From: Ruficoccus amylovorans
Lineage (GTDB): Bacteria; Verrucomicrobiota; Verrucomicrobiia; Opitutales; Cerasicoccaceae
NCBI RefSeq assembly: GCF_014230085.1
Contig: NZ_JACHVB010000060.1
Coordinates: 124,001-188,000, forward strand
Reading direction: 5' to 3'
DNA: 64,000 bases
The position numbers and the translations under genes are program-made. This document shows positions 1 to 46,012 of this stretch, in pieces (positions within the stretch are counted from its first letter, which is position 1; each line of letters opens with the position of its first letter). A model generated the notes under the pieces. The model had not been told where the DNA came from and did no database searches. It saw only the letters and a list, made by a program, of their open reading frames with translations.

Positions 1-834
1 TCGTTCAACTCGCTCGGCCAGTGGCGGCGGATGCGCCCGCTCATCGAGGCGGCGAAAAACCCGCCCAGTTGCGGGCTGCGCGTCAACCCCGAGTACGCCG
101 AGGTCGAAGTGGAGATTTACAACCCCTGCGCGCAGGGGTCGCGGCTGGGGATCACCGCCGCCGCCCTCGAAGGCGAAGACCTCACCGGGCTGGAGGGGCT
201 GCACTTCCACACCATGTGCGAGCAGAACGCCGACGTCCTCGCCCGCACACTTCCGCACTTCGAGGAAAAGTTCGGCCACCTCATTCCCCGGATGAAGTGG
301 GTCAACTTCGGCGGCGGACACCACATCACGCGGGCCGACTACGACGTGGACCTGCTCTGCCGGCTCGTATCAGATTTCCATGACAAGTACGGCGTCCAGG
401 TCTATCTGGAGCCGGGCGAAGCCATCGCGCTGGGCACGGGCGTGCTCGTCGCCACCGTGGTCGACATCGTGGACAACGCCGGGCCGGTCGCCATCCTCGA
501 CACCTCCGCCACCTGCCACATGCCCGACACGCTGGAGATGCCCTACCGCGCCGAGATCGTCGGGGCCGGGCTCCCCGGCGAGCATCCGCACACCTACCGC
601 CTCGGTGGCCCCAGTTGCCTGGCCGGGGACATCATTGGCAGCTACTCCTTTGCCGAGCCGCTCCAGCCCGGCCAGCGCCTCGTCTTCCTCGACATGGCGC
701 ACTACACGATGGTCAAGAACACGACCTTCAACGGCGTCCCTCTGCCCGCCATCTGCACCTGGTCCCCCGACAGCGACAAGATCACTGTGGCCAAAACCTT
801 CGGCTACGCCGACTACCGCAACCGCCTCTCCTAA
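1..834 (+). CDS. nspC: Carboxynorspermidine decarboxylase, 5' end outside window
   Basis: PLP-dependent fold-III decarboxylase that converts carboxynorspermidine or carboxyspermidine to (nor)spermidine in the cytoplasm. The open frame enters from the window edge, with ten in-frame codons before the first visible Met, so the N-terminus and the PLP lysine are missing. Visible are the VNFGGGHH motif (about codons 101-108), the LEPGEA motif and the DTSATCHMPDTLEMP segment carrying the active-site cysteine, all characteristic of NspC/CASDC rather than ornithine or diaminopimelate decarboxylases. The gene ends at TAA and is followed at once by a hairpin array. An arginine decarboxylase gene lies at the other end of the window, which fits a polyamine route through carboxyspermidine. 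The family call is firm. Confidence 0.93.
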   Translation, partial: SFNSLGQWRRMRPLIEAAKNPPSCGLRVNPEYAEVEVEIYNPCAQGSRLGITAAALEGEDLTGLEGLHFHTMCEQNADVLARTLPHFEEKFGHLIPRMKWVNFGGGHHITRADYDVDLLCRLVSDFHDKYGVQVYLEPGEAIALGTGVLVATVVDIVDNAGPVAILDTSATCHMPDTLEMPYRAEIVGAGLPGEHPHTYRLGGPSCLAGDIIGSYSFAEPLQPGQRLVFLDMAHYTMVKNTTFNGVPLPAICTWSPDSDKITVAKTFGYADYRNRLS

Positions 835-1029
835 GCGGGTTGCACCCGCTGGCAATGAGGGGGCGTTGCCCCCTACGGAGCCAGAAAGGCTCCTACCCCA
901 GTGCGTGTCCGCACAGGACATTGAGGGGCTCTGCCCCTACGCCGCCAGAAAGGCGGCTATCCCAAGACTGGCAGTCTGTACAAGCCTCTCCTCTTAAAAC
1001 GATATCCCTATCGTTAAGCCGTGGCTTAA
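835..1029. repeat. Tandem mini-hairpin array A (nine hairpins)
   Basis: Nine perfect inverted repeats follow one another between two convergent genes: 835-849 (GCGGGT TGC ACCCGC), 859-873 (GGGGGC GTT GCCCCC), 877-893 (GGAGCC AGAAA GGCTCC), 901-914 (GTGCG TGTC CGCAC), 925-937 (GGGGC TCT GCCCC), 941-957 (GCCGCC AGAAA GGCGGC), 965-977 (AGACT GGC AGTCT), 998-1015 (AACGATA TCCC TATCGTT) and 1014-1029 (TTAAGCC GT GGCTTAA). Stems are 5-7 bp, loops 2-5 nt, and linkers about 0-20 nt. Hairpins 3 and 6 share the AGAAA loop. The first two share wording with a degenerate stretch at 44384-44418. No single one is a classical terminator with a T-run. Confidence 0.8.
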
Positions 1030-1077: not shown

Positions 1078-1734
1078 CTATTCTTCGACCACGGTACGCG
1101 CGCGCTGGTTGCTGGGGCGGTAATTGGGGGACCAGACCCGGTAGCCGGGGATGGTAATCGTACCGCCCTCCTTGAAAATCGCTTCCTGCAGCTCGATTTC
1201 GCGTTCGATGATGGCGGCGCGCTTTTTGTCGATCTGCTCGGTCTGGATGCTGAGCTGGGCAAGTTCCTGCTTGCGGCGTTCGATGTCCGCGAGAATGGCC
1301 CGCTGCTCATCAGTGAGGCTGGCACCGACGGCGGCCTGGCGCGCGGCGATCTCGGCCTGCTGCTTGCGGGTCGCCTCCAGTTGGGCCTGAATCTGCTGCA
1401 TCTTGCCCGCGATGTCAGAAGCTTCCCGTTCGGCGGCTTCTCGGGCGAGGGCTTCCTGCCGGAGCTTTTCGTTGAGCGCCTTCAGCCGGGCCTGACGGGC
1501 GGCCTCCTCCTGCTCGGCCTTGAGAGCGGCCATGCGCTCGGCCTCAGCCAGCGCCTTGGCCGCGGCGGCGGCCTCCCGCTTCGCATAGGCTTGATGGCTG
1601 GCCTCCAAATCGGCCAGTTCCTGCTGTTGGGCAAGGACTTCCTGCCGGGCGGCGTGGTTGACATTAATCAGTACGACGACGCCGATGAGCGCCGCCACCA
1701 GGGCGAGCGAAAGGATAATAACGGCTTGTTTCAT
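1078..1734 (-). CDS. Membrane-anchored coiled-coil protein, unknown function
   Basis: 218 residues. An N-terminal hydrophobic helix (about residues 5-24) is followed by a long Ala/Glu/Gln/Lys/Arg-rich heptad-like region (about 28-180), predicted to be a coiled coil outside the membrane. A short non-helical tail then contains GTITIPGYRVWSPNYRP. There is no lipobox and no recognisable catalytic motif. The start is ATG. It is transcribed toward nspC and is not obviously in an operon, since the APC permease gene on the same strand starts more than 1.3 kb upstream. The composition resembles TolA-like or divisome-type spacers, but that is only a structural analogy and no function is assigned. Confidence 0.7.
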   Translation of the reverse strand: MKQAVIILSLALVAALIGVVVLINVNHAARQEVLAQQQELADLEASHQAYAKREAAAAAKALAEAERMAALKAEQEEAARQARLKALNEKLRQEALAREAAEREASDIAGKMQQIQAQLEATRKQQAEIAARQAAVGASLTDEQRAILADIERRKQELAQLSIQTEQIDKKRAAIIEREIELQEAIFKEGGTITIPGYRVWSPNYRPSNQRARTVVEE

Positions 1735-1871: not shown

Positions 1872-3038
1872 CTAGCTGGTTGCCGACACCCGCCGCCAGC
1901 GATGCCAGAGCAGTCCCAAACCGATCAGCACGAGCCCCGAACTCCAGGCGCGCCAATCCACCCAGAAGGCCAGAAACACACAACTGGCCAGTCCCGCATA
2001 ACCAATCAGGCGCGGGTAAAGCGTTTGCTCCGGCCTGAGCCGGAGAGCGGCCAGGTTACAGATCGAGTAGTACACCAGCACCGTGAACGTGCTGAAGGAC
2101 CAGGCCAGCTTGATGTCGCCCAGGCCGACCAACATACAGATCAGCACCGCCACGCCTACCACCGCAGCGGCAGGCTGCCCGGCGGCTCCGACTCGTCCGA
2201 ACCGCCCCGGCATATCGCCCCGCAGGCCCATGGCGTAGAGAATCCGCGAGAGCCCGAGCACGAGGTTCAGCAGCACACCCAGCAGGGCCGTCACCTCGCC
2301 CACCCGCCACAGAGCCGGATAGGGCGCACCCCGAAGCTGCGCCCAGGCCACCCCGAGGTAGAGCAACGCCGAGGCCCCAAGCGTGAGAAACATTGCCAAC
2401 GGGATGTTTTTGCGCGGGTCGCGGATCTCGCCCCCCATCGTGGCAATACGTCCGTAGCCGGTGTAACCGACAAAAATCAAAGCACAGACTTCGAAAAAGC
2501 TAAAAACATCGCCACCCGCCGGGGTCGTCCCGGGCGCCGCCATCCGCACCCCGCCCAAGACAAAAGCCAGCAGCGCGAGCAGGGTGAGCGACACGATCAC
2601 GAGGTTGACGAGGCTCGTCCGGCGCAGCCCCCCGAGGATGACAGCCGTCATAAGCACAATCACCCCCAGCGCCACGGGGATTTGCCAGGGCACGTCGGCG
2701 AAACGCCGGGCAATCGCCAGCGCGGCAGTCGCCGCCGAGGCGCTCTTGGCCAGCAGAAACATCCACCCGGCCGTAAATCCGAGCGCGGGCGTGAGCAGGC
2801 GGTAGCCGTACTCGTAGGTGCCGCCAGCCACCGGGTAGTTCGCGGCGAGCTGGGCGCTGTTGAGTCCGTTACAGGTTGCCACGAGGGCGGCCACGAGGAT
2901 GGCCGCGAGAACGTAGAGGCCGGTCATTTCCACTCCCAGGGCAATAACGACAAAAACCCCTGTCCCGAGGATCGACCCCAGACCGATCAGAACGGCCCCG
3001 GCCACGCCCAGTTCGCGTTTCAACTCACTGCTTGCCAT
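1872..3038 (-). CDS. APC-family amino acid permease
   Basis: Polytopic inner-membrane transporter of the amino acid-polyamine-organocation superfamily, about 388 residues, short for a family that usually runs 430-500. The N-terminal helix has the APC signature GLGSILGTGVFV (about residues 18-29), where the unwound part of TM1 binds the substrate carboxylate. A Gly-rich TM2 and the segment NYPVAGGTYEYGYRLL follow. The later segment FVGYTGYGRIATMGGEIRDPRKNIP matches the TM6-loop consensus. The ATG at 3038 is preferred over an in-frame GTG three codons upstream. The substrate cannot be read from sequence, although polyamine or amino acid import would suit the nearby nspC. Confidence 0.88.
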   Translation of the reverse strand: MASSELKRELGVAGAVLIGLGSILGTGVFVVIALGVEMTGLYVLAAILVAALVATCNGLNSAQLAANYPVAGGTYEYGYRLLTPALGFTAGWMFLLAKSASAATAALAIARRFADVPWQIPVALGVIVLMTAVILGGLRRTSLVNLVIVSLTLLALLAFVLGGVRMAAPGTTPAGGDVFSFFEVCALIFVGYTGYGRIATMGGEIRDPRKNIPLAMFLTLGASALLYLGVAWAQLRGAPYPALWRVGEVTALLGVLLNLVLGLSRILYAMGLRGDMPGRFGRVGAAGQPAAAVVGVAVLICMLVGLGDIKLAWSFSTFTVLVYYSICNLAALRLRPEQTLYPRLIGYAGLASCVFLAFWVDWRAWSSGLVLIGLGLLWHRWRRVSATS

Positions 3039-3135
3039 CTTTCGCACAGTGCTCGCCCCCGGTCCCGAGTCAACCCGTTCGGCGCATAGGGAGGCTGTTG
3101 TTACCGAACCGTAACACTTCCTTCTCCCCCGGGGT

Positions 3136-44356: not shown

Positions 44357-44594
44357 CTGGGCTTGTGCAGCCCGGACCCGCCCCCGGTTGCACCCGGAAG
44401 CGATGAGGGACGCTACCCCTTCGGCACTGCGTGCCTACTCCAAGGTATGCGCTCATAAAATGGTGGCGACCCAGTTTTGATACTCCTCAGCGTTTGTTGA
44501 AAAGAGCCGTGCTTTTTTCAACAAACGCTGACGCGATACGCAGTATCGAAAGTGCAGGCTATGCCTGCTGCGGGTCTGGGCTGCACAAGCCCAG
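44357..44594. repeat. Mini-hairpin array C with a 16-bp central stem
   Basis: A series between convergent genes: 44359-44373 (GGGCT TGTGC AGCCC), a degenerate copy of array A wording at 44384-44418, 44423-44435 (GGCAC TGC GTGCC), a strong 16-bp stem at 44488-44530 (arms CAGCGTTTGTTGAAAA and complement), 44534-44548 (CGATAC GCA GTATCG), 44554-44568 (GCAGGC TAT GCCTGC) and 44576-44594 (CTGGGCT GCACA AGCCCAG). The first and last hairpins are inverse copies of each other, so the whole region is bracketed. Confidence 0.78.
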
Positions 44595-44616
44595 TATCCC
44601 CCCTCCCTCCCTATCT

Positions 44617-45867: not shown

Positions 45868-45928
45868 AACAGTCAGGGTCGGTTATATTCACGCCCGCCC
45901 CCGCCGCGTCAAAGCAAATGCAGCAGCA

Positions 45929-46012
45929 GCAGGACAGAGTCCTGCACCTGTGATCCTCCGGATCACTGATGCCTCCGCTCGGAGCTGCGGCATGGAATGC
46001 GGCTCTTGCCGC
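45929..46012. repeat. Mini-hairpin array D (four hairpins)
   Basis: 45929-45945 (GCAGGAC AGA GTCCTGC) and 45950-45966 (GTGATCC TCC GGATCAC), with the same ACCT linker as arrays B and E. Then 45973-45984 (CTCCG CT CGGAG) and 45999-46012 (GCGGC TCTT GCCGC). Unlike the others this array lies between divergent genes, upstream of both the uracil methyltransferase and the TrmH-type gene. Confidence 0.78.

Follow-up and report, generated by a model that had tools for sequence, protein, structure and literature searches.

A dispersed, ordered chain of three hairpins behind genes of Ruficoccus amylovorans, close in kind to REP/BIME elements

Among the closest described systems are the GTAG REPs, which have been reported from Opitutus terrae (Verrucomicrobia) and are located behind genes, frequently providing the TAG stop codon; their stems show complementary changes (PMC3733652). 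Compensatory stem changes have likewise been reported for REPINs (PMC3116915), and TnpA-REP cuts at CT next to the REP (PMC8266576). Clusters of hairpins near stop codons have been proposed as terminators, with sequence conservation near the stop codon not found (PMC8355165), and the hairpin elements of sponge mitochondria have conserved stems and variable loops (PMC2800124). Here we describe a dispersed repeat found in a 64,000-nucleotide stretch of the genome of Ruficoccus amylovorans (the window). At the level of titles and abstracts, the literature yielded no description of its three-hairpin unit. The view of the initial annotation that no named repeat has such a design is not supported, since REP/BIME elements are of a closely similar kind.

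Nine mini-hairpins lie at positions 834–1029 of the window, directly 3′ of the stop codon of nspC, and we verified every stem and loop letter by letter. Two copies of the repeat unit account for six of them. Our covariance model of the repeat, R1, was built from seven units of this genome, after a pattern taken from hairpin C had located the unit at further places; both window units are among these seeds, so that their R1 matches arise by construction. The features of the window are as follows.

1..834, plus strand: 3′ part of nspC (carboxynorspermidine decarboxylase; gene name from the initial annotation), an open reading frame (ORF) matching PF00278 over 31–834 at E 3.1e-11
834–850, plus strand: hairpin 1 (A of unit 1), stem 7 bp, loop 3 nt
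858–874, plus strand: hairpin 2 (B of unit 1), stem 7 bp, loop 3 nt
877–893, plus strand: hairpin 3 (C of unit 1), stem 6 bp, loop 5 nt
901–914, plus strand: hairpin 4 (A of unit 2), stem 5 bp, loop 4 nt
924–938, plus strand: hairpin 5 (B of unit 2), stem 6 bp, loop 3 nt
941–957, plus strand: hairpin 6 (C of unit 2), stem 6 bp, loop 5 nt
965–977, plus strand: hairpin 7, AGACT-GGC-AGTCT, stem 5 bp, loop 3 nt, in the position expected for the A hairpin of a third unit
998–1015, plus strand: hairpin 8, AACGATA-TCCC-TATCGTT, stem 7 bp, loop 4 nt, outside the repeat family
1014–1029, plus strand: hairpin 9, TTAAGCC-GT-GGCTTAA, stem 7 bp, loop 2 nt, outside the repeat family
834..900, plus strand: repeat unit 1, hairpins A, B and C and tail TACCCCA; R1 match at 835–900, 76.2 bits, E 2.2e-15
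901..964, plus strand: repeat unit 2, hairpins A, B and C and tail TATCCCA; R1 match, 88.3 bits, E 4.4e-18
1078..1734, minus strand: ORF MKQAVIILSL..., coiled-coil-like by eye, with no Pfam match
44384..44442, plus strand: probable diverged unit of the repeat family; R1 match, 22 bits, E 0.0028

The nspC stop codon (TAA, 832–834) adjoins unit 1, and hairpins 8 and 9 overlap by two bases (1014–1015). The nine perfect inverted repeats of the initial annotation, with stems of 5–7 bp and loops of 2–5 nt, are all present, the first starting at 834 and not 835, as are its two AGAAA loops. The nine are not a single design, and the contrast that the initial annotation drew with tandem duplication is not supported, because hairpins 1–6 are two head-to-tail tandem copies of a dispersed unit. 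Membership of hairpins 7–9 in the family is not supported: for the stretch that holds them (965–1077), the genome offers nothing convincing as a second copy, the best match being 29 bases at E 0.24, although the hairpin at 965–977 is possibly the decayed start of a third unit.

In an automatic scan (stem ≥5, loop 2–5), these 195 nt hold eight non-overlapping perfect hairpins, compared with a mean of 0.78 (s.d. 0.83, maximum 4) in 2000 dinucleotide shuffles of the same 195 nt, none of which reached eight. This comparison had been set beforehand as a refuting test of the initial annotation, and the rarity of the row withstood it. Other 195-nt clusters in the window never exceed four hairpins; when the window was shuffled 30 times, the maximum per shuffle was four to six. 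Folded as RNA, positions 834–1029 are more stable than any of 200 shuffles (z = −4.4); the minus strand of 834–964, folded as single-stranded DNA, also exceeds all 200 shuffles (z = −6.7).

We read the grammar of the unit from 95 places in the genome, these being 108 matches less 14 from overlapping loci plus one added (L023:1501-1567), with no duplicates; loci L092–L096, which have no match at E ≤ 0.001, were left out. The unit is about 64 bp long and consists of hairpin A, a linker, hairpin B with a GGGGC..GCCCC core, the bases ACG, hairpin C and CTACCCC or CTGCCCC. Between A and B, the linker is exactly GRCAWTGA in 34 of the 95 copies and has another form ending in TGA before B in 42, with neither in 19. 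Modules of at least five dissimilar kinds fill slot A (GTGCG..CGCAC; xCGGGTTGCACCCGx; GGTGC, GATCC and GATGC types; CTCCGGCTGGAG; and ACGC..GCGT). Hairpin B is AGGGGC/GCCCCT, ATGGGGC/GCCCCAT with one extra pair, or longer. Hairpin C has six perfect stem types in this genome, mostly with the loop AGAAA or AAAAA; among the congeners, the matches of G001 to the exact linker pattern mostly have GGCAC-TGC-GTGCC, G003 often has GCTCCC-GAT-GGTCGC, and AGAAA and AGACA (five each) are the most frequent C loops in G002 loci. The C hairpins are thus partly species-specific, in a pattern like that of concerted evolution or recent amplification.

Within a unit and across its tandem copies, linkers and tails share one direction, hairpin chains may extend further at the 5′ side, and whole units form convergent pairs at some loci (for example, L031/L061 and L078). 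At least eight copies (L022, L049, L051, L053, L059, L064, L071 and L085) carry an extra hairpin, GTCCGGCTGGACCAGCAAT, or part of it within the B loop, an arrangement that resembles the insertion of one repeat into another. The reverse complement of GTCCGGCTGGACCAGCAAT occurs 3′ of hairpin C in other copies, such as L018, L024, L028 and L038.

Five loci (L065, L066, L067, L077 and L078) form a subfamily with an additional 5′ hairpin, GCAGGGC-AT-GCCCTGC; although their places are unrelated, they differ very little over 80 nt, and the subfamily looks young, which makes it the most promising source of insertion junctions. Two further hairpin chains lie in the window. The first, at 44467–44600, is a second composite repeat made of CCCAGTTTTGAT.., a long CAGCGTTTG..CAAACGCTG hairpin, CGATACGCAGTATCG and TGCAGGC..GCCTGC, and it also occurs in the orthologous gap of G001 (L205) with compensated stems (CGATGCGTAGCATCG). 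The other, at 45920–46010, contains GCAGGAC..GTCCTGC and GTGATCC..GGATCAC, and at L068 the unit is followed downstream by a variant of this chain whose stem is GTGATGC..GCATCAC.

With 150 of 1427 candidates scored, R1 finds at least 113 matches in the R. amylovorans genome at E ≤ 1; with 98 of 1375 scored, it finds at least 83 at E ≤ 0.001, seven being the seeds in each case. At the stricter threshold, the repeat is present in six of 54 genomes and has no match in the remaining 48. All four genomes of the genus carry it (83, 48, 64 and 23 matches), as do G005 from the same family (14) and G044 from another family of the order (19). R2 at E ≤ 1e-4 found it in at least seven of 177 genomes of the order, with 29 candidates scored per genome, and added G119. 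The seven carriers are therefore the present genome (G000), its congeners G001, G002 and G003, and G005, G044 and G119. An exact linker pattern occurs in five of 372 genomes of the order (R. amylovorans, G001, G002, G003 and G119) and in three of 387 genomes of a phylum sample, all within the genus; the reversed-pattern control gave no matches. Rfam has no match to the window at gathering score and none to 780–1120 at E ≤ 5.

The matches in G044 had been suspected to be false, a suspicion that we dropped because the DNA there shows a similar linker order: AGCCATTGA, AGGGC-TGC-GCCCT, TACG, a hairpin and CTATCCCC, with another such B hairpin before. The A and C stems of G044 are very different from ours, and several of its copies are identical to one another; G119 likewise combines a similar linker order with different stems. 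Either common descent or convergence between REP-like families could account for the likeness of G044. Within R. amylovorans, copies at unrelated loci are 95–100% identical over 80–129 nt, as judged from 33 similar pairs; seven of these pairs, in which two windows overlap at a single place, were not taken as copies. This near-identity mostly stops at the end of the chain, with one pair (L065/L078) continuing 49 nt beyond, and on these alignments it suggests recent spread.

How does this repeat compare with the systems described above? It shares with GTAG REPs short stems, mostly short loops, a dispersed and intergenic distribution, a place behind genes, TAG at the stop and complementary stem variants (PMC3733652). 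Unlike them, it strings three dissimilar hairpins in a fixed order and one direction, with recurrent linkers and an inconstant tag, and five of its seven carriers have no RAYT above the cut-off; the separation from the O. terrae GTAG families is drawn from their described traits (PMC3733652). With BIMEs and REPINs, the repeat has in common a composite of palindromes and linkers, tandem copies and, for REPINs, compensatory stem changes (PMC3116915, PMC8266576). REPs in BIMEs and REPINs are paired in inverse orientation, whereas our unit runs in one direction and exchanges hairpin modules. The double-hairpin elements and RHE of mitochondria are also mobile-looking intergenic hairpin elements without known function, but they are organellar, and in sponges the stems are conserved and the loops vary, whereas here the stems vary and the linkers recur (PMC2800124). 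Hairpin-cluster terminators similarly place several hairpins within a few bases, close 3′ of stop codons, yet they are not a sequence family, and our repeat is one (PMC8355165). With at least 83 matches, and with 84 of 95 copies outside called genes, the unit has the small palindromic form and the many intergenic places of a REP; a RAYT gene flanked by cognate REPs, which defines a REP/RAYT system (REPtron), was not found above cut-off in the five carriers searched with the RAYT model. Judged by how it works and how it is built, we class the repeat as a variant of REP/BIME elements, and keep it out of the REP/RAYT system because the defining enzyme was sought and not found in five of the seven carriers.

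We examined stem covariation in an alignment of 43 distinct copies from five genomes (45 rows: 23 from R. amylovorans, seven from G001, four from G002, five from G005 and six from G044) with 17 paired positions. Pairing was kept in 94.0% of cells against 70.9% in shuffled alignments, two-sided changes occurred in 140 cells against 41.1, and the covariation score was 0.500 against 0.123 (at most 0.084 with slid partners); all these figures lean upward, because the structure guided the alignment and the copies are related, the slid controls being less affected by relatedness. Further pair types numbered 35 against 29.3 in shuffles, four of 500 shuffles reaching 35, and the count of pairs with two-sided changes (12 of 17 against 9.9) was a weaker measure, with 19 of 500 shuffles reaching 12. 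For hairpin C, which could be parsed in 75 of the 95 copies and not in 20, the Watson–Crick fraction over 24 distinct stems was 0.75; shuffling the arms 2000 times gave 0.649 and never more than 0.729.

Comparison with congeners revealed turnover at individual sites. None of the three (G001, G002 and G003) has a unit in the nspC gap. In all three, a homolog of the MKQA... ORF follows nspC in the same direction; the window copy is inverted, amid genes that are otherwise collinear with the congeners, except that a permease at 1872–3047 was not aligned in G001. This small local inversion has the hairpin units at its left end and none seen at its right end. At L034, an R. amylovorans site within the nspC stretch of G001, G001 is also unit-free. 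From G001 we took 20 evenly spaced stretches of 20 kb, in which six R. amylovorans sites have both flanks alignable: the unit is absent at four (L014, L057, L078 and L085), has other modules at one (L035/L200) and has left an apparent remnant, seen by eye and without an R1 match, at the last (L073/L206).

Five sites are shared with G002, having been picked because G002 carries a unit there. Module A is kept at L026, L031 and L057 (one of them decayed), whereas L068 and L076 have a different A module at the same stop codon, and a second R. amylovorans unit at L031 has no counterpart. A pair of the C stem differs on both sides at three of the five (L031, L068 and L076). The initial annotation had named a lack of stem conservation in orthologous gaps as refuting, and the outcome is split: the nspC gap shows no such conservation, whereas at these five sites both genomes have units. 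Its view that pairing is maintained while the letters change is supported by the covariation. The replaced modules at shared sites fit both independent insertion at a favored site and conversion by another copy. Reading the aligned orthologous gaps by eye, we found no clean empty site against which the terminal inverted repeats and target-site duplication of a MITE could be judged, the congener sequences being too diverged for one and the adjacent gene inversion blurring the site at nspC. Neither a target duplication nor a transposition intermediate was found.

Using a simple codon-usage gene caller made for this analysis, we placed the 84 intergenic copies relative to genes. The 5′ side of the unit faces the 3′ end of a gene in 65 of them, and the 3′ side faces the 3′ end of the neighbor in 46 of 83. 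In 30 of the 84, a stop codon lies no more than 8 nt from the start of the unit (16 TAG, eight TAA and six TGA, with two of the TGA stops inside the unit), 21 of the starts lying within one base of the stop, compared with only two units whose 3′ ends come within 8 nt of a stop. These counts cover all 30 adjacent copies. For the 19 next to reliable ORFs, CTAG is enriched at the adjacent stop (nine of 19 against 27 of 210 other stops; Fisher P = 0.00065), whereas TAG alone is not significantly so (nine of 19 against 66 of 210; P = 0.20). CTAG is no general target rule, because CTAR occurs a few bases upstream in only 18 of the 95 copies. On the plus strand of the window, CTAG is about ten times rarer than base composition predicts (20 observed, 221 expected), yet it is common at the stops that precede units.

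The directional placement of units directly 3′ of stop codons is what one would expect of RNA devices in the 3′ tails of mRNAs that terminate transcription without a U tract or protect from 3′ decay, with selection on the RNA keeping the structure; a functional mRNA 3′ element would likewise favor gene 3′ ends. The stable RNA fold of 834–1029 (z −4.4) and the proposal that hairpin clusters near stops act as terminators (PMC8355165) fit this explanation as well. We nevertheless consider it unlikely. As intrinsic terminators the units are rejected: no site with a GC-rich hairpin and a T run occurs in 700–1200, not one of the 30 units next to a stop has the ending of a U-tract terminator, and a crude scan places a separate terminator-like site downstream of 11 of these 30. 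Congeners manage without a unit behind nspC, and 19 of the 84 intergenic copies have no gene 3′ end at their 5′ side. G·U pairs fill only ten of 695 cells, compared with 42 for other mismatches, so that no slow, RNA-like route through wobble pairs is visible. The counts of G·T and A·C, three and none among 1093 pairs in a parse that trims stem-end mismatches (P = 0.25), show no clear excess of G·T and speak for neither side.

The repeat could instead be an ordinary GTAG REP family whose RAYT is missing from the draft assembly (97.8% complete), has diverged beyond what the models recognize or was lost not long ago. CTAC, which reads GTAG on the opposite strand, follows hairpin B in 58 of the 95 copies and hairpin C in 52, and the GTAG REPs of O. 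terrae share with our units the place behind genes, the TAG stop and the complementary stem changes (PMC3733652). In these units, part of the GTAG tetranucleotide belongs to the stem; the tag is replaced by ATCG or TGCG in subfamilies and is absent from the G044 copies that we read. The Y1_Tnp model PF01797 matches four genes in G002 and five in G005 at E ≤ 0.001, these two genomes having been searched with this model alone, but it has no match in the R. amylovorans genome at E ≤ 1 or in G001, G003 and G044 at E ≤ 0.001, while matching ten of 14 control genomes. The RAYT model NF047646 (REP transposase) has no match above cut-off in any of the five carriers tested (G000, G001, G003, G044 and G119), G044 having a single match below it (E 0.51); the control of this model is weak, with matches in eight of 14 genomes, including Escherichia coli, and above cut-off in only one of the 14. 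The hairpins on either side of three RAYT-like genes of G005 are of other types (AACCCC..GGGGTT or GCATCCC..GGGATGC), and these loci have no R1 match at E ≤ 0.01. As a resident mobilizer, a RAYT was not found above the model cut-off in five of seven carriers, and we regard an ordinary GTAG REP family as a doubtful explanation. The three G005 loci (L213, L214 and L215) resemble a more classical REP/RAYT set in a neighboring genus.

A third possibility is hairpin copying, in which template switching within a stem at replication repairs one arm from the other and so yields two-sided change without movement. Two-sided changes do far exceed G·U intermediates, and at L031 and its G002 counterpart L228, hairpin A is much the same while one pair of C is flipped from G-C to C-G. 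Purine–pyrimidine orientation flips outnumber wobble-compatible changes by 2643 to 957 in row comparisons, a count that is inflated because these comparisons mix non-homologous A modules. Since the replaced modules match subfamilies resident elsewhere in the genome, exchange of blocks is the simpler account; hairpin copying also leaves the dispersal unexplained, and we think it very improbable. Chance hairpins, which GC-rich DNA often makes (the window has 341 short hairpins, and 30 shuffles of it average 279) and which may include hairpins 7–9, are rejected for hairpins 1–6 by the 2000 shuffles and the at least 83 sequence-related matches, and as a general explanation hardly merit consideration.

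We conclude that the repeat is probably a REP-like mobile element that is not autonomous, exchanges its hairpins as blocks and has been spread by an unrecognized or lost factor acting on single-stranded DNA; both mobility and mechanism we infer from the comparisons above. The unit would spread as single-stranded DNA and be recognized by its hairpins, and the spreading factor would be supplied in trans by an unrecognized enzyme or have been lost. New or donor copies may overwrite parts of resident ones by ectopic conversion or may insert again at the same sites, and a hairpin exchanged as a block would stay perfect. Just 3′ of stop codons, units would persist in a spot that is tolerated and perhaps favored. 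Those downstream of genes are probably transcribed as 3′ tails and may affect the mRNA, which need not be the reason for their existence.

More tentatively, and as a possibility to which we give limited credence, the heritable unit may be the grammar itself: ordered hairpin slots and recurrent linkers, with stems swapped as modules, kept across families of the order and spread without a Y1/HUH REP transposase by a single-stranded DNA process not yet recognized. The repeat provides a data set in which RNA selection, transposase recognition of single-stranded DNA and the exchange of blocks among repeats, which are usually confounded, may be separated, and G001, with two contigs and nearly closed, is the genome in which to seek the spreading factor. 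REP elements are usually attributed to a resident RAYT; here, a high-copy and apparently recently active family occurs in seven carriers, five of which have no RAYT above cut-off, and its architecture keeps the hairpins and linkers but replaces the stems.
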